Assembly (NCBI RefSeq): GCF_001704615.3 | Contig: NZ_CP029397.2 | Coordinates: forward strand, 2,294,001 to 2,358,000 | DNA length: 64,000 nucleotides | Source of the DNA: Acinetobacter defluvii | GTDB lineage: Bacteria > Pseudomonadota > Gammaproteobacteria > Pseudomonadales > Moraxellaceae | Direction: 5' to 3' | Shown: positions 30,195 to 38,996 of the stretch, piece after piece | Numbering within the stretch: position 1 is the stretch's first letter | Layout of the letters: the number at the start of each line of letters is the position of its first letter | The notes under the pieces: generated by a model | Databases searched by the model: none | Seen by the model: only the letters and a program-made list of their open reading frames with translations | Told to the model about the DNA's origin: nothing | Program-made: the position numbers and the translations under genes

Positions 30195-30992
30195 TTATTT
30201 CACTTTCATCTTCCGAATCATTTTATATAAAATTTTCGGTGAAATACGTGACACTAACACGCCAAGTTTTTCTTTACGTCCACCCACCACAATAAATTCT
30301 TCACCTTTTTGCAGCGCTTCAACTGTTTGTTGCGCAAACGCCTCAGCATCTAAACCATTTTCAATGGCTTCATCCTGATGTCCTTGCGGCTTACCTTCAC
30401 CATTCAACGCATTAAACGATACATTAGTTTTGACAAAACCAGGGAAAATGACTGAAACATTGACCCCATCTTGCGCCACTTCAGCACGTAAGCTATTTGC
30501 CCACATATGAATCGCAGCTTTTGCAGCCGAGTAAGATGCGCGATATTGCGTCCCCAACAAACCTGTAATACTCGACACATAAGCAATCCGACCTGATTTT
30601 TGCGCTAAAAAAGTCGGTAAAACCGTTTTGGTTAAAAAGACTTGTGAAAAATAGTCAATTTCCATAATGGCACGTTCAGTTTGCATAGTGGTATCTACAA
30701 TCAAGGCACGTTGACTTAAGCCAGCATTATTAATCAGCCAATCAATCCGCCCTTTTTCTTTCAACACTTGCTCGTAGGCATGGCGAACCTGTGATTCATG
30801 GGTAATGTCCATAGCAACCGAAATGTGCCGATCTGGATGTAGCAAACTGATTCGGACATTTTCAAGCTCATCTAAACGGCGTGCACTTAGTACCACATGT
30901 GCACCTTGTAAAGCACACTCTTTGGCTAATGCTTTACCTAAACCCGATGAAGCTCCAGTAATCCAAACAACCTTATTTTCTATTCCTTCCAT
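30195..30992 (-). CDS. Short-chain dehydrogenase/reductase
   Basis: A 265-residue classical SDR. The cofactor motif is TGASSGLG near residues 14-21, NNAG near 90, the catalytic Ser lies in YVSSITG, and YSAAK near 157 gives the Tyr-Lys pair. The Arg in LSARRLDEL suggests NADP(H). The C-terminal basic tail (RMIRKMKVK-like) fits members that sit near membranes, such as DltE/YqjQ-like enzymes acting on lipophilic carbonyls. Substrate unknown. An SD-like GAGGAA is upstream. Confidence 0.85.
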   Translation of the reverse strand: MEGIENKVVWITGASSGLGKALAKECALQGAHVVLSARRLDELENVRISLLHPDRHISVAMDITHESQVRHAYEQVLKEKGRIDWLINNAGLSQRALIVDTTMQTERAIMEIDYFSQVFLTKTVLPTFLAQKSGRIAYVSSITGLLGTQYRASYSAAKAAIHMWANSLRAEVAQDGVNVSVIFPGFVKTNVSFNALNGEGKPQGHQDEAIENGLDAEAFAQQTVEALQKGEEFIVVGGRKEKLGVLVSRISPKILYKMIRKMKVK

Positions 30993-31073: not shown

Positions 31074-31766
31074 CTATGCACGTACCAAAAAGTGGTTAAA
31101 ATGTTTTGCATAATGTTGTGCTTTTTCAGCATCACTGGCTTTGTATTCATCACCCACTTTTTCAAGTCGTTTATAGCCTGTACTGGTGATCATATTGATC
31201 ACACCATTTAAGGTTTTATCGACCACAAAGTTAAATTTTAATAACGTTTTTGGATCACGAATGAACTCAGAAATCCCCAGATCAATAATTTTTACCAAAT
31301 TTTTCAAGGTTGCAGGCAAAGCTTGAATATTTCCCGCTAAAACTTGTTCAATATTTTGACTAGCTTCCTCACCTAACTGACGATCGAGTACATAGTACAT
31401 ATAGATTTGCTCAGGGTTTGAATGATCAAACTTTTGTAAAATATGATTTGCAACGGGTTTTAAACGATCATTACCAAAAAATGAAATTGACCATGGCATA
31501 TATTTTCTAAGCGCACTTTCAATTTGTTCAAATATTTGTTCAGCTTCTTTTAAACTTTTTTGTCCTGCTGCATCCAAAGTTTTGCCTCGTTTTTCTTCAA
31601 TTAAGCGTCCAAAAACTTGCTCTAAAACCTGACAAGACATTTCGGTAAATATACTCCCCAATTGTTTAGATAAACTTTCCTTGTCACCTTGGTTCAAACG
31701 CTCAGTCACATTTTTTAACGCTTGATACGTTTCGGTATTGATTGCTAAGTTAATTTTGTAAGTCAT
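31074..31766 (-). CDS. Hypothetical helical protein
   Basis: A 230-residue protein if started at the ATG at 31766 (MTYKINLAINTETYQAL), which has AAAGG nine bases upstream; an ATG 11 codons earlier has none. It is mostly helical and lysine/glutamine-rich, with no signal peptide or membrane span. I do not recognise the family. Its terminus (DAEKAQHYAKHFNHFLVRA) and length are conserved-looking, and it sits between the SDR gene and valS as its own unit. Confidence 0.7.
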   Translation of the reverse strand: MTYKINLAINTETYQALKNVTERLNQGDKESLSKQLGSIFTEMSCQVLEQVFGRLIEEKRGKTLDAAGQKSLKEAEQIFEQIESALRKYMPWSISFFGNDRLKPVANHILQKFDHSNPEQIYMYYVLDRQLGEEASQNIEQVLAGNIQALPATLKNLVKIIDLGISEFIRDPKTLLKFNFVVDKTLNGVINMITSTGYKRLEKVGDEYKASDAEKAQHYAKHFNHFLVRA

Positions 31767-32131
31767 GCAAATCAGCCTTTTGTTAATATTATGGGTCAAC
31801 GGTGTTGAGATATTAGCAAAGCATTATTGCTTATGCATTGTCTTTTTATCCTTGTTTTTGGGTTTTCACTGACGATTAAGCCACTCTTTTAGCTCAGGTT
31901 TTATAGTTTTTATTGTAATTTTGACTAATTTAGTAGGATATTTCACTGTTTTTATTTTTGTTTTTAATATTTTTTTGAACAACATACAAATGCTACACAA
32001 GCTAGATTTTTAAAGATCAAATTTAAAAATCATGTCTAAGCAGTAAATGAGCTGAATCAGAATCAACAAAGCCGATAAATATTTTGCTACAATGAATACA
32101 ATTTTTTATCTACTTTTGATCTGTTTAGACT
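31767..32131. other. Gene-free region upstream of valS
   Basis: About 365 bp, AT-rich, between divergent genes. It must carry the valS promoter. I see no T-box-like structure, leader peptide or strong hairpin. Confidence 0.45.
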
Positions 32132-35026
32132 ATGACTGATTCAGCGCAAAACATTGCTACGACTTACGATCCTACCGAGATCGAGAAAAAATGGTATAAG
32201 ACTTGGGAAGAGAATGGCTACTTCAAACCCTCTCGTGAGGGAGAATCATTCTGTATCATGATTCCGCCACCAAACGTCACGGGTAGCTTGCACATGGGTC
32301 ATGGTTTTAACAATGCCATCATGGATGCTTTGACGCGCTACAACCGTATGTCTGGCAAAAACACTTTATGGCAACCAGGGACTGACCATGCGGGCATCGC
32401 AACCCAGATGGTGGTTGAACGTCAACTGGGTGCACAAAACATTAGTCGCCATGATTTAGGTCGTGAAAAGTTCATCGACAAAATCTGGGAATGGAAAGAA
32501 CAATCAGGTGGCACGATTACGCGTCAAATCCGTCGCCTAGGTTCGTCTGTAGACTGGTCACGTGAACGCTTCACTATGGATGAAGGTTTATCGAATGCAG
32601 TAAAAGAAGTATTCGTTAGATTACACGAAGATGGTTTGATCTACCGTGGTAAACGCCTCGTAAACTGGGATCCAAAACTACAAACTGCCCTTTCTGACCT
32701 TGAAGTTGAGTCTGATAAAGAAGAACAAGGTTCATTGTGGCATTTCAAATATTTCTTTGAAGATAAGTCACTTCGCACACACGATGGTAAAGATTACATC
32801 GTGGTTGCAACAACTCGTCCTGAAACTCTACTCGGTGATAGTGCCGTTGCAGTTGCACCTGATGATGAACGTTATGCACACCTTGTAGGTAAAAACATTA
32901 TCCTGCCAATTACAGGTCGTGCAGTTGCGATTGTTAAAGATGAATATGTAGACAAAGAGTTCGGTACAGGCTGTGTAAAAATCACCCCTGCACATGACTT
33001 CAATGACTATGACGTAGGTAAACGCTGTGAATTGCCAATTATCAATATTTTCAACAAAAATGCTGAGATCTTGGCTGAGTTTGAATACATCGCGAAAGCG
33101 GGTGAACAAATTTCTAAAACCATCCCTGCACCTGCTGAATATGTGGGTTTAGAACGTTTTGCTGCACGTAAGAAATTAGTTGAACAAGCTGAAGCTGAAG
33201 GTTGGTTAGATCAAATTCAACCGTACACATTGAAACCACCTCGTGGTGACCGTTCAGGTGTGATCGTTGAGCCATTACTGACAGATCAATGGTATGTGAA
33301 AATTGCACCCCTTGCTGAACCTGCAATCAAAGCGGTTAAAGATGGCGACATCAAATTTGTACCTGAGCAATATAGCAACATGTACATGGCTTGGATGAAT
33401 AACATTCAGGACTGGTGTATTTCTCGTCAATTGTGGTGGGGTCACCGAATTCCTGCTTGGTACGATGCTGAAGGCAACATCTACGTGGGTCGTAACGAAG
33501 AAGAAGTTCGTGCAAAAAATAACATTGCCACTGATGTTGAACTAAAACAGGACGAAGACGTTTTGGATACATGGTTCTCGTCTGCGCTGTGGACATTCTC
33601 AACTTTAGGTTGGACGGGCGACGAAGCGAAAGATAAACAAAACTATTTCTTAAATACTTTCCATCCAACTGACGTACTTGTGACTGGTTTTGACATCATC
33701 TTCTTCTGGGTTGCACGTATGATTATGTTTACGTTGCATTTCATGAAAAATGAAGATGGTACGCCACAAGTTCCGTTCAAAACTGTTTATGTACATGGTT
33801 TAGTCCGTGATGGCGAAGGTCAGAAAATGTCTAAGTCTAAAGGGAACGTACTTGACCCATTAGATTTGATTGACGGTGTTGATCTTGAAACTTTGGTACA
33901 GAAACGTACTACTGGTTTGATGAACCCGAAAACTGCGCCGAAAATCGAAAAAGCGACGCGTAAAGAATTCCCAGAAGGGATTCAAGCTTACGGTACAGAT
34001 GCGGTTCGTTTCACATTCTGTGCACTTGCCAATACGGGTCGTGACATCAAATTCGACATGAAACGTGTTGAAGGTTACCGTAACTTTGCCAATAAAATTT
34101 GGAATGCAACACGCTTCGTGATGATGAACTGTGAGCAACAACCAATTGGTCAGGAAGTTCGTCAAGACCTTTGGGAATTACCTGAACAGTGGATCGTCAG
34201 TCGTTTACAGAAAGCTGAACAAGCGGTTCAAACGGCATTTGCAACCTATCGTTTAGATTTGGCTGCGCAAGCAATTTATGAATTCATCTGGAATGAATAC
34301 TGTGACTGGTATGTTGAGCTGACTAAGCCTGTACTGAATGATGAAAATGTATCAACTGAACGTAAAGCTGAAGTTCGCCGTGTTCTTCTTGCGGTGATGG
34401 AAGCTTCTTTACGTTTGGCACATCCATTGATGCCTTTCTTAACAGAGGAAATCTGGCAGACACTTGCGCCGATGATCGGCATCAAAGGTGATACCATCAT
34501 GCTGGCGCAATACCCTGTTGCCAATCCTGAACGTATCAATGAGCAAGCGGAAGCTGATATGCAATGGCTTCAAGGTTTGATTGGTGCGGTTCGTAACATC
34601 CGTGGTGAAATGGGCTTAGGTAATGCACGTTTGTTGCCTGTTCTGCTTCAAAACACCACTGATACTGAAAAAGCACAGATTGCACGTATTGAGCCGTTGT
34701 TTAAAGCATTGGCAAAAGTTGAAAGCATTACTTTCCTTGCAGATGCTGAACAACCACCATTGTCATCGTCTTCTGTCGTTGGTCACGTGTCTGTATTTGT
34801 CCCGATGAAAGGTTTGATTGATCCTAAAGCGGAATTGGGTCGTCTACAAAAAGACTTCGACAAGGTTCAAAAGCAACATGACCAAATTGCGACTAAATTG
34901 GGCAATGAAGGTTTTGTGGCGAAAGCCCCTGCTGCTGTGGTTGAAGGCGAGAAAGTTAAACTTGCTGAGTTCGCTGATCAGTTAGCGAAGATTAAAGCGA
35001 ATATGGAGCAGATTGCGGCGCTTTAA
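32132..35026 (+). CDS. valS: Valyl-tRNA synthetase
   Basis: A 964-residue class I synthetase, similar in length to other gammaproteobacterial ValRS (about 950). The HIGH motif appears in [17 protein letters not shown] near residue 48 and KMSKS in [14 protein letters not shown] near residue 565. The CP1 editing domain lies between, with [10 protein letters not shown]. The C-terminal coiled-coil arm ([19 protein letters not shown]) is intact. Charges tRNA-Val and clears mischarged Thr. All opposite-strand open frames over it are shadows. Confidence 0.98.
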
Positions 35027-35056
35027 GGTGTTGTAATTTAATAAATAAGATGTAAG

Positions 35057-35085
35057 ATAAAAGGCTGATTATTCAGCCTTTTATC
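35057..35085 (+). terminator. Intrinsic terminator of valS
   Basis: AAAAGGCTGA / TCAGCCTTTT with a tiny loop and T-rich tail. It ends about 10 bp before the start codon of the next gene, so that gene's promoter must overlap it: TTGTAA at 35031-35036 and TAAGAT at 35053-35058, spaced 16 bp, are candidates. Confidence 0.8.
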
Positions 35086-35094
35086 TTTAACTAC

Positions 35095-36060
35095 ATGAAA
35101 GATTTTTTTCAAGACTTTTTTACCAAAAATATCACTAACAACGATAATAGAACTTTTAATAATAATATTGTAATTGAAGGTCAAAATAATCCATTTGAGA
35201 AAACAAAGGATGAAGAACATCTAGGGCGATTAAAAAGTGTTTATGAAATTACTATAGCAACAAGAAACTTAGAAATTGGACAACTAGTTCAAAGAAATAA
35301 TTTTTTTATGATATTTCAGGGTGTTTTATTTGCATGTTTAATTTATTCAAGCAATACGGTCCCATACGTCCATCTAATTCTTTGCTCAGTAGGATTTTAT
35401 GTTGCCTATTCTCAGACTGCTGTTGCGGCTGGAGCTAAATATTGGCAAGAATTTTGGGAGAAAAAATTAGAAACCATAGAACAGCATCTTTTAAAGTTTT
35501 ATAAAAAAGATGATAAGAATCTGGCTGTAGATAGTAATCTAACTGAATTTTATCAATTGTTCTCGACAGAACAATCTGAAATAAATGGCGATGTTATAAA
35601 ACAATTAGATAGAAACACTGACAATAACAGTTTTACAAGCAAAGTAAATAATTTTTGGAGTCTCAACTTAAATCGAAGTTTTATAAATTACTTTACATTT
35701 TTAAAAGTTATCTATAGTAGAGAACTCATTTTAGCTAAACCATCTGTAAGTAAAATTCCAATTCGTGTTGGAAGATTTTTTATGATAGCGTGGGGGTTAT
35801 TATTTATATCTACATTATGGTTTCCAAACAAATGGCTAGAAAATAAAAACTTGAATGAAAGTTTTTTACGAGGTTTTCCAACTCATAAAGAAGCAGCTAA
35901 GCAAGAAATTTATTTTTCAGCTGATAAACCTATTAGCAATACAGCCATCCCACTAAATATTCAAATTAAAGATTTAGAAAAAATTAATAAAAATCAAAGA
36001 ATTAATATTGAATTATCAATTAATGGTCAAAAAATTGAAGCTAAAGGAGTAATTAAATGA
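35095..36060 (+). CDS. Two-helix membrane protein, RipA-like
   Basis: A 321-residue protein. Residues 1-45 are polar and Asn-rich; two adjacent membrane helices follow (about 78-95 and 99-115), with the segment AAGAKYWQEFWEKKLETIEQ directly after, a pattern I associate with RipA-like octameric membrane proteins. A third hydrophobic helix lies near 230 (FFMIAWGLLFISTLW) before a soluble C-terminal domain with beta character. There is no ribosome site before the ATG, which stands about 10 bp after the valS terminator. Its stop overlaps the start of the nucleotidase gene (ATGA). Clearly AT-richer than valS, suggesting acquisition. The family label is tentative. Confidence 0.7.
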   Translation: MKDFFQDFFTKNITNNDNRTFNNNIVIEGQNNPFEKTKDEEHLGRLKSVYEITIATRNLEIGQLVQRNNFFMIFQGVLFACLIYSSNTVPYVHLILCSVGFYVAYSQTAVAAGAKYWQEFWEKKLETIEQHLLKFYKKDDKNLAVDSNLTEFYQLFSTEQSEINGDVIKQLDRNTDNNSFTSKVNNFWSLNLNRSFINYFTFLKVIYSRELILAKPSVSKIPIRVGRFFMIAWGLLFISTLWFPNKWLENKNLNESFLRGFPTHKEAAKQEIYFSADKPISNTAIPLNIQIKDLEKINKNQRINIELSINGQKIEAKGVIK

Positions 36061-37052
36061 GTGGGTATGATTTAGAACAAAAACTTGTTATAGGCTTAGC
36101 TTCAAGTGCATTGTTTAATCTAGAAGAATCAGATGAAGTATTTAGAACTCAAGGAGAACTAACATATCGTGAATATCAGCGTGAACATGAAAATATCCTC
36201 TTAGAACCAGGCGTAGCTTTTCCCTTTATTCAACGACTTCTTAGTTTGAACAGTATTTTCCCCAAAGATAAACCATTTGTTGAAGTTATCCTCCTTTCTC
36301 GTAATGACCCTAATACAGGATTACGAGTCATGAACTCTATTGAACATTATGGTTTAGGGATTAAAAGAGCAATTTTTTTACAAGGTCGCACACCACATAA
36401 ATACATCAATGCTTTAAATATTAGCTTATTTCTTTCAGCCAATGAAACTGATGTTAATCAAGCAATACTTGCCGGATATCCTGCTGGTTTAATATTAAAA
36501 GGCCACATATTTGATGTAGCACATGATAAAGAGCTACGCATTGCTTTCGACTTTGATGGAGTGATCGCTGATGATTCTTCCGAACAAGTCTATAAAGAAA
36601 GTGGTCTTGGCGCATTTATTGAAAATGAAGAAAATTTAGCTAATCAACCTGCAAATATTGGTCCTTTACATAAATTATTAAAAGAACTTTCAACTTTACA
36701 AAAAGAAGAAATTAAATATCAGTCTCAAAATTCTGATTATAAAAGTAGATTAAGACTTTCTATTGTTACAGCAAGAAATGCACCTGCCCATAAAAGAGTC
36801 ATAAACTCTTTAAGAGCGTGGGGAATAGATACAATAAACGAAGCGTTTTTCTTAGGCGGTATTGAAAAACGTAGAGTCTTAGAAATTTTAAATCCACATA
36901 TTTTCTTTGATGATCAAGTTACTCACCTTGAAAGAACTGCTAACAGTATTGCATCTGTTCACATCCCCTTTGGTATAGCCAATAAAAAAGCTGATCCTAA
37001 ACAAGCTATTGTATCTAATGATCAGAAGAAAATATCCGCAGAAAATAGCTAA
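36057..37052 (+). CDS. Cytosolic-type 5'-nucleotidase (NT5C1-like)
   Basis: A 331-residue protein that matches the PF06189 5'-nucleotidase pattern. The N-terminal half includes PGVAFPFIQRLLSLN and VEVILLSRNDPNTGLRVMNS; the HAD-like core has the catalytic LRIAFDFDGVIADDSSEQV near residue 165, RLSIVTARNAPAHKRVI near 240 and HIFFDDQ near 283 as the last acidic motif. It should dephosphorylate nucleoside monophosphates. A GGAG lies ahead of the start, within the upstream gene, with ATGA overlap. The pairing with a membrane protein hints at a dedicated two-part system; that role is inferred. Confidence 0.85.
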   Translation: MSGYDLEQKLVIGLASSALFNLEESDEVFRTQGELTYREYQREHENILLEPGVAFPFIQRLLSLNSIFPKDKPFVEVILLSRNDPNTGLRVMNSIEHYGLGIKRAIFLQGRTPHKYINALNISLFLSANETDVNQAILAGYPAGLILKGHIFDVAHDKELRIAFDFDGVIADDSSEQVYKESGLGAFIENEENLANQPANIGPLHKLLKELSTLQKEEIKYQSQNSDYKSRLRLSIVTARNAPAHKRVINSLRAWGIDTINEAFFLGGIEKRRVLEILNPHIFFDDQVTHLERTANSIASVHIPFGIANKKADPKQAIVSNDQKKISAENS

Positions 37053-37105
37053 ATTTTATACCCTCTCCCATAGGGAGAGAGAGCAATCCTTTACTAATTT
37101 TCTTA

Positions 37106-37531
37106 CTATTTGATACGTAATGAAGTTTCCTCTCCTTTCAGGAGATGAGCAGCACTGCTGCGCAAGGGAGAGGTGCTTTTTAATTCATTACAAACACTCC
37201 ACAAATCTTCTAAAACCACCTCAGTATTCCCCAACACATCATGATTCCAATACCGCACCACTTTAAAACCCAAAGCCTCTAAAAATTGAGTCCGTTCGGC
37301 ATTATATTCAACTGCATCATCAGTCCCATGCTGACTGCCATCTAACTCAATCACCAAACCAAGCTCATGACAGTAAAAATCCATAATATACGGCGCAATC
37401 ACATGCTGACGACGAAACTTTAAATCCATAAATCATCTAGCACGTAAAATCTGCCACATCAAATATTCTGCATCCGTAGCATGGCTACGCATATTTTTAG
37501 CAAATTCTAATAATGATGAATTTATTTTCAT
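37106..37531 (-). pseudogene. DUF559 (very-short-patch-repair-like) gene with nonsense codon
   Basis: Reading from the ATG at 37531, the frame begins MKINSSLLEFAKNMRSHATD and reaches LRAR, then a TGA at 37433-37435, and continues in the same frame with FMDLKFRRQHVIAPYIMDFY. The two parts together make the normal DUF559 layout (LW-x-LR-x-R, KFRRQ, VIELDGSQH, ERTQFLEALGFKVVRYWN). A CGA-to-TGA change is the simplest cause. The 3' end runs into the repeat that also occurs at 447-542, giving the odd tail TSPLRSSAAHLLKGEE. An internal ATG at 37429 could still make a 107-residue fragment that retains the D-E-type nuclease core. Confidence 0.85.
37128..37180. repeat. Copy of the dispersed repeat
   Basis: Contains CCTCTCCTTTCAGGAGA and AGGGAGAGGTGCTTTT (37165-37180), both shared with the lldD-dld gap, plus the palindrome GCAGCACTGCTGC. 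A CTCTCCC/GGGAGAG hairpin lies just outside at about 37064-37078. Confidence 0.6.
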
Positions 37532-37681: not shown

Positions 37682-38881
37682 CTATTGACGCATTAATACA
37701 TCCACATCATTCACCAATGCAGGAATATTATCTGATACAGCCGTACTATGTGTTTTTCCTTCTAAAAGCTTTAAATGAACATCAGTTTTTTTCGCCAACA
37801 TATTTTCGACTAATTTTACCGTGATTGGATAAGGCACTGTGGTATCGGCTTTACCTTGATAAATATAAACTGGTTTTTCAAGTTTAATTTTCGCTGGAGT
37901 ATTATCCGCTAAGTAATTTGCAATATCAGGATCTTCTTTAAAATTTGGCTGTAAGGCTTGATACTTACTCAGATTACCGTGATTTGCTTGTAAACTATTA
38001 GCAATGTCTTTACCAAATTCTACTGCTAACTCTGGTGAACATAAACTCTCAGCTTTCTCAGCAAGTGGCACTTTAGCATCTACAAATGCCTGATTATATT
38101 TAAAAGTTGTAGAGCCTGCTTTTATCCCTGAACTGACAATCGCAGCATACGTATGTAGAGTTGCACTAACCTCAGTTGCACTTTTAAAATCTTGTGCAAT
38201 TGCTAAATTATTAGCAACATCCATTCCCATATCTAAGGTTTCAGCAAGATATGATGCGGGTGCGATTGCAATAGTTCCTTTAAAATTATAACTAGGTAAT
38301 GCTTTACTGTATTCAGCCGCAGCTAAAGCCGCATGACCACCTTGCGACCAACCGATCACACTCCAATTTTTAGATAAATTACCATAATGTTTATTCGCCT
38401 CATCTAAAGCAAATAAAATTGATTTTGCAGCACTTTGTAGATTGAGATAAGGATGTGCAACTTTTTTATTGCCTAAACCCTCATAGTCTGGGGCAACTAC
38501 TGCATAACCTTTTTGTAGCAATGCCATAATCAAGTTTTTTTCCAAACCATCTAATGCATTTGCAGATGGTGCACATTGATCTGCTGCACCCGTTGTACCA
38601 TGTGCCCACACAACAACTGGCCATCCACCTACAGGCGCATTGCCTTTAGGCGTAAAGACTAAAGTGGTTGCATCAATATTTTTATTTAAAACACTTGGCA
38701 TGGTATAAGTAAAAATATCGTGTTTATTCGCTACATTCGCAACATCATTATCGACTTTAAATGTTTTAGTTTTTGATTCTCCAATAAAACTAAAATCATT
38801 ATCGTCATCGCTACATCCTGCAAAAAATAGAACCGAACTACAACTTAAAGCGATTAGAGATTTTTTAAGTAACTGTTGCAT
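37682..38881 (-). CDS. Lipoprotein lipase/esterase (secretory lipase family)
   Basis: A 399-residue alpha/beta hydrolase. I start at the ATG at 38881 with GAGGA upstream instead of the TTG two codons earlier. The signal ends in a lipobox (VLFFAGC), so it is probably an outer-membrane lipoprotein. The nucleophile elbow is GWSQGGHA near residue 180, the acid is in QGKADTTVPYP near 345 and the His in EGKTHSTA near 375. The oxyanion part WAHGTTGAADQC fits the LIP (PF03583) family. It probably hydrolyses esters or lipids outside the cytoplasm. Single gene. Confidence 0.85.
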   Translation of the reverse strand: MQQLLKKSLIALSCSSVLFFAGCSDDDNDFSFIGESKTKTFKVDNDVANVANKHDIFTYTMPSVLNKNIDATTLVFTPKGNAPVGGWPVVVWAHGTTGAADQCAPSANALDGLEKNLIMALLQKGYAVVAPDYEGLGNKKVAHPYLNLQSAAKSILFALDEANKHYGNLSKNWSVIGWSQGGHAALAAAEYSKALPSYNFKGTIAIAPASYLAETLDMGMDVANNLAIAQDFKSATEVSATLHTYAAIVSSGIKAGSTTFKYNQAFVDAKVPLAEKAESLCSPELAVEFGKDIANSLQANHGNLSKYQALQPNFKEDPDIANYLADNTPAKIKLEKPVYIYQGKADTTVPYPITVKLVENMLAKKTDVHLKLLEGKTHSTAVSDNIPALVNDVDVLMRQ

Positions 38882-38996
38882 ATGCAAATCCTCATTTTAT
38901 TGTTGTTAAGCTCTTCATGAGCATTGATCTAATAAAACATAAAAAAAAGCATCTTACTAGGATGCTTTCATGAAAATGCAGTGATTTTATGCTTTT

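Follow-up and report, generated by a model that had tools for sequence, protein, structure and literature searches.

The window, by which we mean the whole stretch of 64,000 nucleotides of Acinetobacter defluvii DNA that was analyzed, contains a pair of overlapping genes directly downstream of valS (Table 1). The first gene encodes a membrane protein of the 8xMP family and the second a cytosolic-type 5′-nucleotidase. The original prediction, made from the letters of the window, had described two reading frames sharing the sequence ATGA, a position right after the valS terminator, a decayed DUF559 gene beyond the pair and a base composition richer in A and T than that of valS. All of these features were confirmed. 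The overlap comprises positions 36057-36060, a terminator-like hairpin ends just ahead of the start codon of gene 1, the DUF559 frame is cut by a stop codon, and the GC content amounts to 27.5% in gene 1 and 33.4% in gene 2 compared with 43.4% in valS and 37.5% in the whole window. The valS frame, which we take to encode ValRS, was recognized by reading its sequence and not by a family scan. Together with DUF559 it forms the immediate neighborhood of the pair. Since 11 more Acinetobacter genomes show this arrangement, which in one of them (G019) is split between two contigs, it is not a product of chance.

Table 1. Position of the gene pair, its borders and its conserved parts in the window.
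Feature	Position	Strand	Evidence
valS, 964 aa ORF, left slot border	32132..35026	+	relative in 60/60 genus genomes searched
Terminator-like hairpin between valS and gene 1	35054..35087	. (minus strand in scan output)	15-pair stem with a loop of 4
Gene 1, 8xMP-family (PF24838) membrane protein, 321 aa	35095..36060	+	Pfam scan, ORF call
Conserved core of gene 1, residues 45-122 (long helix, TM1, TM2, GAKxWQExWE)	35227..35460	+	invariant columns
Hypervariable middle of gene 1, residues 123-205, probably cytosolic	35461..35709	+	identity drop
Gene 2, cytosolic-type 5′-nucleotidase, 331 aa	36057..37052	+	PF06189, PADLOC PDC-S08, structure model
DFDGV, HAD motif I of gene 2, residues 165-169	36549..36563	+	D165 and D167 identical in 14/14 slot copies
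FFDDQ, HAD motif IV of gene 2, residues 283-287	36903..36917	+	D285 and D286 identical in 14/14 slot copies
Decayed DUF559 gene, right slot border	37106..37429	-	PF04480, E = 2.9e-26; stop in frame

In six of eight pair loci the start codon lies 3-9 bases past the terminator hairpin. Genes heading the corresponding gap in other genomes start 1-9 bases past the hairpin at L194, L195, L200, L203, L206, L208, L210 and L212 and 16-62 bases past it at L213, L216 and L222, the distance at the remaining loci being not reliably measurable. A start codon so near to the hairpin leaves scarcely any space for a usual ribosome site. A consensus promoter scan for the pair returned 8 matches, with a mean of 9.6 in shuffled sequences, and hence no excess.

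The gene upstream of valS (31074-31799) likewise diverges unusually strongly among species, being 33-93% identical to its counterparts at the pair loci L011-L017, and is present in duplicate at L017; the next gene is 74-95% identical. A Pfam scan of the window neighbors at 30195-30992, 31074-31763, 37106-37429 and 37682-38887 revealed no mCpol, CD-NTase or TIR domain and hence no neighboring signal synthase as in Panoptes, CBASS or Thoeris; the family scan covers these window neighbors, with which the neighbors at the other pair loci were compared. An island or prophage setting is unsupported, as the flanking genes are shared between genomes and no integrase was recognized when the gene lists were inspected by eye. 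At L011, transposase-like genes lie just past the nucleotidase.

The membrane protein and the nucleotidase

The Pfam scan assigned gene 1 to PF24838 (E = 9e-20, 71.3 bits, cut-off 30), which carries the Pfam name 8xMP, 'octameric membrane protein family'. A relative 94% identical to gene 1 bears, in its source, the label 'RipA family octameric membrane protein'. PF24838 matched 24 of 24 members of an alignment including the window protein at E values up to 10, and no other family of substance was found within this limit. PADLOC models gave no match to gene 1. As read from a low-confidence monomer model for the helices (mean pLDDT 59.7), from the alignment for conservation and interpretively for the membrane assignment, the protein consists of a conserved N-terminal helix, two transmembrane helices close together (TM1 and TM2), the motif GAKxWQExWE (GAKYWQEFWE in the window), a middle segment, the motif SVSxxPI, a third helix and a tail. 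The two close membrane helices, the motif and the tail had been described correctly beforehand, whereas the third helix at residues ~220-240 had been missed. According to the positive-inside rule, the middle segment is probably cytosolic and the tail probably periplasmic. Foldseek searches with the poor 8xMP model retrieved unspecific helical bundles only, none of them with an E value below 0.5.

Conservation differs along the protein. At L011-L017 the core is 62-74% identical to the window copy, and the middle segment 14-22%. The stretch from SVSxxPI to the C-terminus comprises 73-141 residues in nucleotidase-linked 8xMP proteins (eight of eight measured). In solo 8xMP proteins it comprises 35-53 residues in 24 of the 25 that were measurable and 91 residues in L071, seven others being not measurable.

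Gene 2 matched PF06189 in the Pfam scan (E = 6.6e-125, 416.3 bits, cut-off 28.2) and, over nearly its full length, the PADLOC model PDC-S08 (E = 7.7e-137). The acid motifs DFDGV and FFDDQ, by which the enzyme had originally been recognized, were confirmed. Six HAD-type positions were checked (D165, D167, T238, K271, D285 and D286), and all were identical across the 14 slot copies of the nucleotidase introduced below. The structure model of gene 2 reached a mean pLDDT of 84.8. In a fold search the top row was a spurious-looking dehydrogenase (E = 2.6e-4, TM 0.23); the lower rows included HAD phosphatases among others, e.g. AphA (E = 6e-3).

Distribution in Acinetobacter and the slot behind valS

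PF06189 was detected in 9 of 99 sampled Acinetobacter genomes, all nine of which also carry PF24838, and a search of 175 Acinetobacter genomes revealed the nucleotidase in 15. Fourteen of these 15 copies are of the slot type, sharing at least 76% identity with the copy in the window, and for 13 of the 14 a single contig places the gene in the gap downstream of valS. The position of the remaining slot copy (G019) is deduced from two contigs, one bearing the nucleotidase and the other valS, each of which ends in an 8xMP fragment. The 8xMP frame beside valS in this genome (L078/L031) contains a stop, and the copy may be decayed. An 8xMP gene lies directly upstream of 12 of the 14 slot nucleotidases, which places the pair in 12 of 175 genomes; where both genes lie on one contig (11 pairs), they are spaced by -28 to +23 bases. 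The pair is therefore not core, and its presence in all Acinetobacter, which would have spoken against the original prediction, was not observed.

At L264 the slot nucleotidase is preceded by an unrelated 194-aa ORF instead of 8xMP. This ORF belongs to a widespread uncharacterized family with 1383 relatives and has no significant Pfam match. At L263 nothing stands upstream of the enzyme. A 45% identical nucleotidase in G274 (L265) is located outside the slot, with no 8xMP within the 13 kb fetched. In G023, 8xMP stands behind valS where the contig ends, and no nucleotidase match was obtained; four other Acinetobacter loci (L068-L071) contain 8xMP without nucleotidase, and a fifth, L072, is truncated at the end of its contig.

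Comparison of valS-downstream sites across genomes displayed variable cargo, mostly of defense type. Forty regions were collected from 40 of 60 genomes, those omitted being pair carriers, genomes with short contigs and some more. Of these regions 37 were scored, after exclusion of L217, which measures 451 bases, and of L191 and L192, in which the border could not be located. A crude ORF picker (at least 60 aa) supplied the slot genes, and L218 was set as occupied by hand. Three of the 37 regions are empty between valS and DUF559 (or whichever conserved gene comes next), and the others contain one to five ORFs varying by genome. In the window this gap extends from 35027 to 37105. On the basis of Pfam matches and clustering, 24 of the 34 occupied slots contain defense-typical families, a label that rests in part on general knowledge of these families and extends to L211, where a HEPN match stays below the cut-off. 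Septu-like cargo, consisting of an AAA ATPase and a small partner gene, occupies L194, L195, L204, L208, L210, L212, L213 and L227; the partner is of HNH type in the sole member scanned (L194), while L195, L204, L208, L210 and L212 were placed by clustering. Other AAA_15 ATPases are found in L193, L202 and L203 and KAP proteins in L209 and L222. Single slots harbor OLD with TOPRIM (L196), HerA (L197), SIR2 (L200), FRG (L201), TIR plus a ThsB-like TIR (L206), DUF4062 (L207), caspase (L214), protein kinase (L223), RelA/SpoT (L224) and reverse transcriptase (L226). As the other 10 of the 34 hold methyltransferases (L198, L228, L229 and L230, the last two placed by clustering with L228), a weak cupin match (L225) or unknowns (L199, L215, L216, L218 and L221, whose main proteins gave no Pfam match within the limits applied), the site is not devoted to defense alone. 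Merging of the 34 occupied slots by protein clusters resulted in about 23 cargo types. The Septu-like cargo of L195 and L212 and the KAP cargo of L209 and L222 appear, by eye, to be broken by transposase-like genes.

PADLOC reported 350 families for 68 cargo proteins and 3 families, with one member each, for 67 flanking control proteins, which were chosen by the same script and in many cases represent the same core gene from different genomes. A single PtuA model matched 16 of the 68 cargo proteins, a count that overstates Septu because PtuA models also match AAA ATPases generally. The cargo families together with the difference between cargo and controls identify the site as a compact, defense-rich slot with the pair as one of its occupants.

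Both partners of the pair were compared in 28 pairwise combinations among eight one-contig loci (window and L011-L017). The median identity was 92% for valS, 86% for the nucleotidase and 41% for 8xMP. At L011 and L014 the 8xMP proteins (94% identical) are closer to each other than the nucleotidases (87%), indicating that 8xMP types are exchanged and not tied to the nucleotidase. The 8xMP proteins of L012 and L013 are 91% identical, and at L016 a nucleotidase with 74% identity stands next to a valS 96% identical to that of L011. In the middle segment of 8xMP, dN/dS was 0.08 for L011/L014 and 0.04 for L012/L013. These low values in close allele pairs leave relaxed constraint as the source of 8xMP divergence unsupported; the two pairs gave no sign of ongoing positive selection either, synonymous sites being saturated in most others. 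The 8xMP types look discrete and constrained. Mantel tests over the eight loci yielded 0.23 for valS and nucleotidase (p = 0.21), 0.19 for valS and 8xMP (p = 0.22) and 0.52 for 8xMP and nucleotidase (p = 0.02). Vertical core inheritance is unsupported, given the presence of the nucleotidase in 15 of 175 genomes and the lack of a significant correlation between valS and nucleotidase distances.

The theme of defense is supported by the location of the pair at a site where other genomes mostly keep defense-type genes. We regard the pair as a swappable occupant of this slot; its likeliest identity, held with about even confidence, is an anti-phage cassette made up of both genes. The defense role suggested originally gained from the slot position, the sporadic distribution, the AT-rich composition and a divergence that does not track valS, but lost the idea that such an enzyme is generally coupled to the membrane protein elsewhere.

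Occurrence outside the genus and alternative readings

In the loci examined beyond Acinetobacter the pair was not found, and a general pairing of the nucleotidase with a membrane partner was not borne out; such a lack of co-occurrence had been named beforehand as an outcome that would speak against the original prediction. At least 505 named nucleotidase loci were matched, and the top 80 of them comprised 77 from outside the genus, none of which contained 8xMP within up to 6 kb on each side, and three from Acinetobacter, all of which did. Likewise, 8xMP was missing within 1.5 kb of the 27 nucleotidase loci that were checked among the matches from other Moraxellaceae. That the nucleotidase family is common and elsewhere unlinked to 8xMP is the main counter-evidence to our interpretation. 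PADLOC matches were rare among the neighbors of foreign nucleotidases (142 of 146 scanned owing to a length limit): they amounted to 37 families, and each of the 25 families listed was matched by 1 of the 142 neighbors.

The main rival to the anti-phage reading is plain nucleotide salvage, according to which an enzyme of a common family was acquired in a permissive gap and 8xMP is separate cargo or a membrane anchor. More distant PF06189 relatives matched in 62 non-Acinetobacter Moraxellaceae genomes (40 from one genus and 14 from another), so that the family probably includes housekeeping members. This spread, the restriction to 15 of 175 genomes within Acinetobacter and the solitary nucleotidase of L263 fit a salvage enzyme. 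However, 8xMP is placed immediately upstream, and sometimes overlapping, in 12 of 14 copies, the slot otherwise swaps mainly defense-type genes, and the distribution is sporadic. We consider salvage possible though not probable.

A second alternative assigns the function to 8xMP alone, as a phage-exclusion or membrane-disrupting protein with which the nucleotidase shares only transcript and slot. In favor of this view, 8xMP occurs without nucleotidase, within up to 8 kb on each side, at 27 of 27 predicted viral-contig loci (L040-L066, IMG/VR), as it does at L068-L071. The additional length past SVSxxPI in the nucleotidase-linked proteins nevertheless suggests adaptation to the pair, and the explanation appears decidedly unlikely. 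No nucleotidase was located within 1.5 kb of 8xMP in seven other genomes of the order. At L058-L063 and L066 a shared conserved gene, beginning with MENL, comes next after 8xMP. Very unlikely is a toxin-antitoxin-like arrangement, in which a harmful nucleotidase would be restrained by 8xMP until infection: although the genes overlap with the membrane gene first, an enzyme needing strict restraint should not tolerate the absence of 8xMP seen at L263, L264 and 77 of 77 foreign loci.

A candidate two-gene defense cassette

For the preferred reading, an anti-phage cassette of both genes, we infer oligomer or pore behavior, infection cue, enzyme substrate and phage effect as follows. 8xMP would be an oligomeric inner-membrane protein and the infection-responsive part of the cassette, and its type-specific cytosolic middle may recognize, or be gated by, an infection-related cue and thereby set specificity. 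The nucleotidase would serve as the constant catalytic module hydrolyzing nucleoside 5′-monophosphates. An infected cell would lose usable nucleotides while its membrane is perturbed. A more specific version, which we hold to be unlikely, is a 'dephosphorylate-and-leak' defense composed of the enzyme and a triggered 8xMP gate. In this version the nucleotidase would convert nucleoside monophosphates, including those freed from phage-degraded host DNA, to uncharged nucleosides, and the 8xMP oligomer, triggered via its type-specific segment, would let nucleosides or ions escape, so that the nucleotide pool could no longer be recycled into phage DNA. A constant enzyme combined with a swappable gate would explain the unequal conservation of 86% and 41%.

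Known defenses based on dCTP deaminase or dGTPase remove nucleotides. They employ a different class of enzyme from the window nucleotidase, and we know of no membrane partner of the 8xMP type in them. Fifteen non-own PF24838 matches came from 14 genomes of a phylum sample (Pseudomonadota), and three of them have a TIR-type gene directly upstream of 8xMP. These neighbors were chosen by eye from the 15 loci and confirmed by family scan as TIR/SEFIR (L235), a TIR match below the cut-off (L236) and a ThsB-like TIR (L239). Such loci share the membrane family with the window pair and differ from it in that the partner of 8xMP is a TIR-type gene on the upstream side and not a nucleotidase on the downstream side. 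Many TIR-type domains handle nucleotides, and TIR proteins in defense produce nucleotide signals for effectors. With such TIR neighbors, 8xMP may plausibly act as a membrane effector in systems linked to nucleotides, and the nucleotidase would be a plausible alternative partner. Papers on TIR-8xMP pairs were not among the literature matches listed.

PDC-S08, the model matched by gene 2, presumably denotes a one-gene computational phage defense candidate in PADLOC naming. The window enzyme differs from it in being paired with 8xMP, for which PADLOC has no match. In a P. aeruginosa panel, strains with the rare PDC-S08 were split evenly into resistant and susceptible ones, according to an excerpt of the report (PMC10855318). 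On the few strains covered by this excerpt, the even split argues mildly against the nucleotidase alone as a strong defense. Excerpts of two further reports describe Csx28, the Cas13b accessory protein of type VI-B CRISPR, as an octameric pore depolarizing the inner membrane (PMC12669027, PMC11014256). Csx28 shares the description 'octameric membrane' with the name of the 8xMP family and, at a guess from this name, the two might be related; a comparison of the 8xMP sequence profile with PDB chains matched no Csx28 chain, and Csx28 was also absent from the results of the fold searches, which carries no weight given the poor 8xMP model. In the excerpted account of Panoptes (OptS/OptE), an operon of a nucleotide enzyme and a two-helix membrane effector constitutes a defense system (PMC12657218). 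As described there, its two-gene layout of nucleotide enzyme and membrane protein resembles that of the window pair, but OptS synthesizes cyclic nucleotides and OptE belongs to the S-2TM beta proteins, in contrast to a nucleotidase and 8xMP. Among the matches listed from openly licensed PMC papers, none dealt with an 8xMP-nucleotidase pair or a valS defense hotspot, and a term search of the DefensePredictor main text was without match.

The pair provides a concrete, compact and testable candidate cassette whose enzyme comes from a widespread family included among the PADLOC candidates, with the diversified part being the membrane partner and not the enzyme. The small, well-bounded slot behind valS allows Acinetobacter cargo types to be read by position, and the five cargo types without a family match represent further candidates.

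On plasmids, the nucleotidase family was present in 46 of 72,556 records and an 8xMP protein near enough to be detected in one. The latter record is a 9.5-kb Acinetobacter pittii plasmid (L231, NZ_CP018910.1) encoding a distant 8xMP with 33.7% identity over 63% of the query; it also bears toxin-antitoxin genes and blaOXA-72. Among 50,697 phage records, three (H42-H44) contained nucleotidase relatives with 38-44% identity, one of them from a cyanophage.
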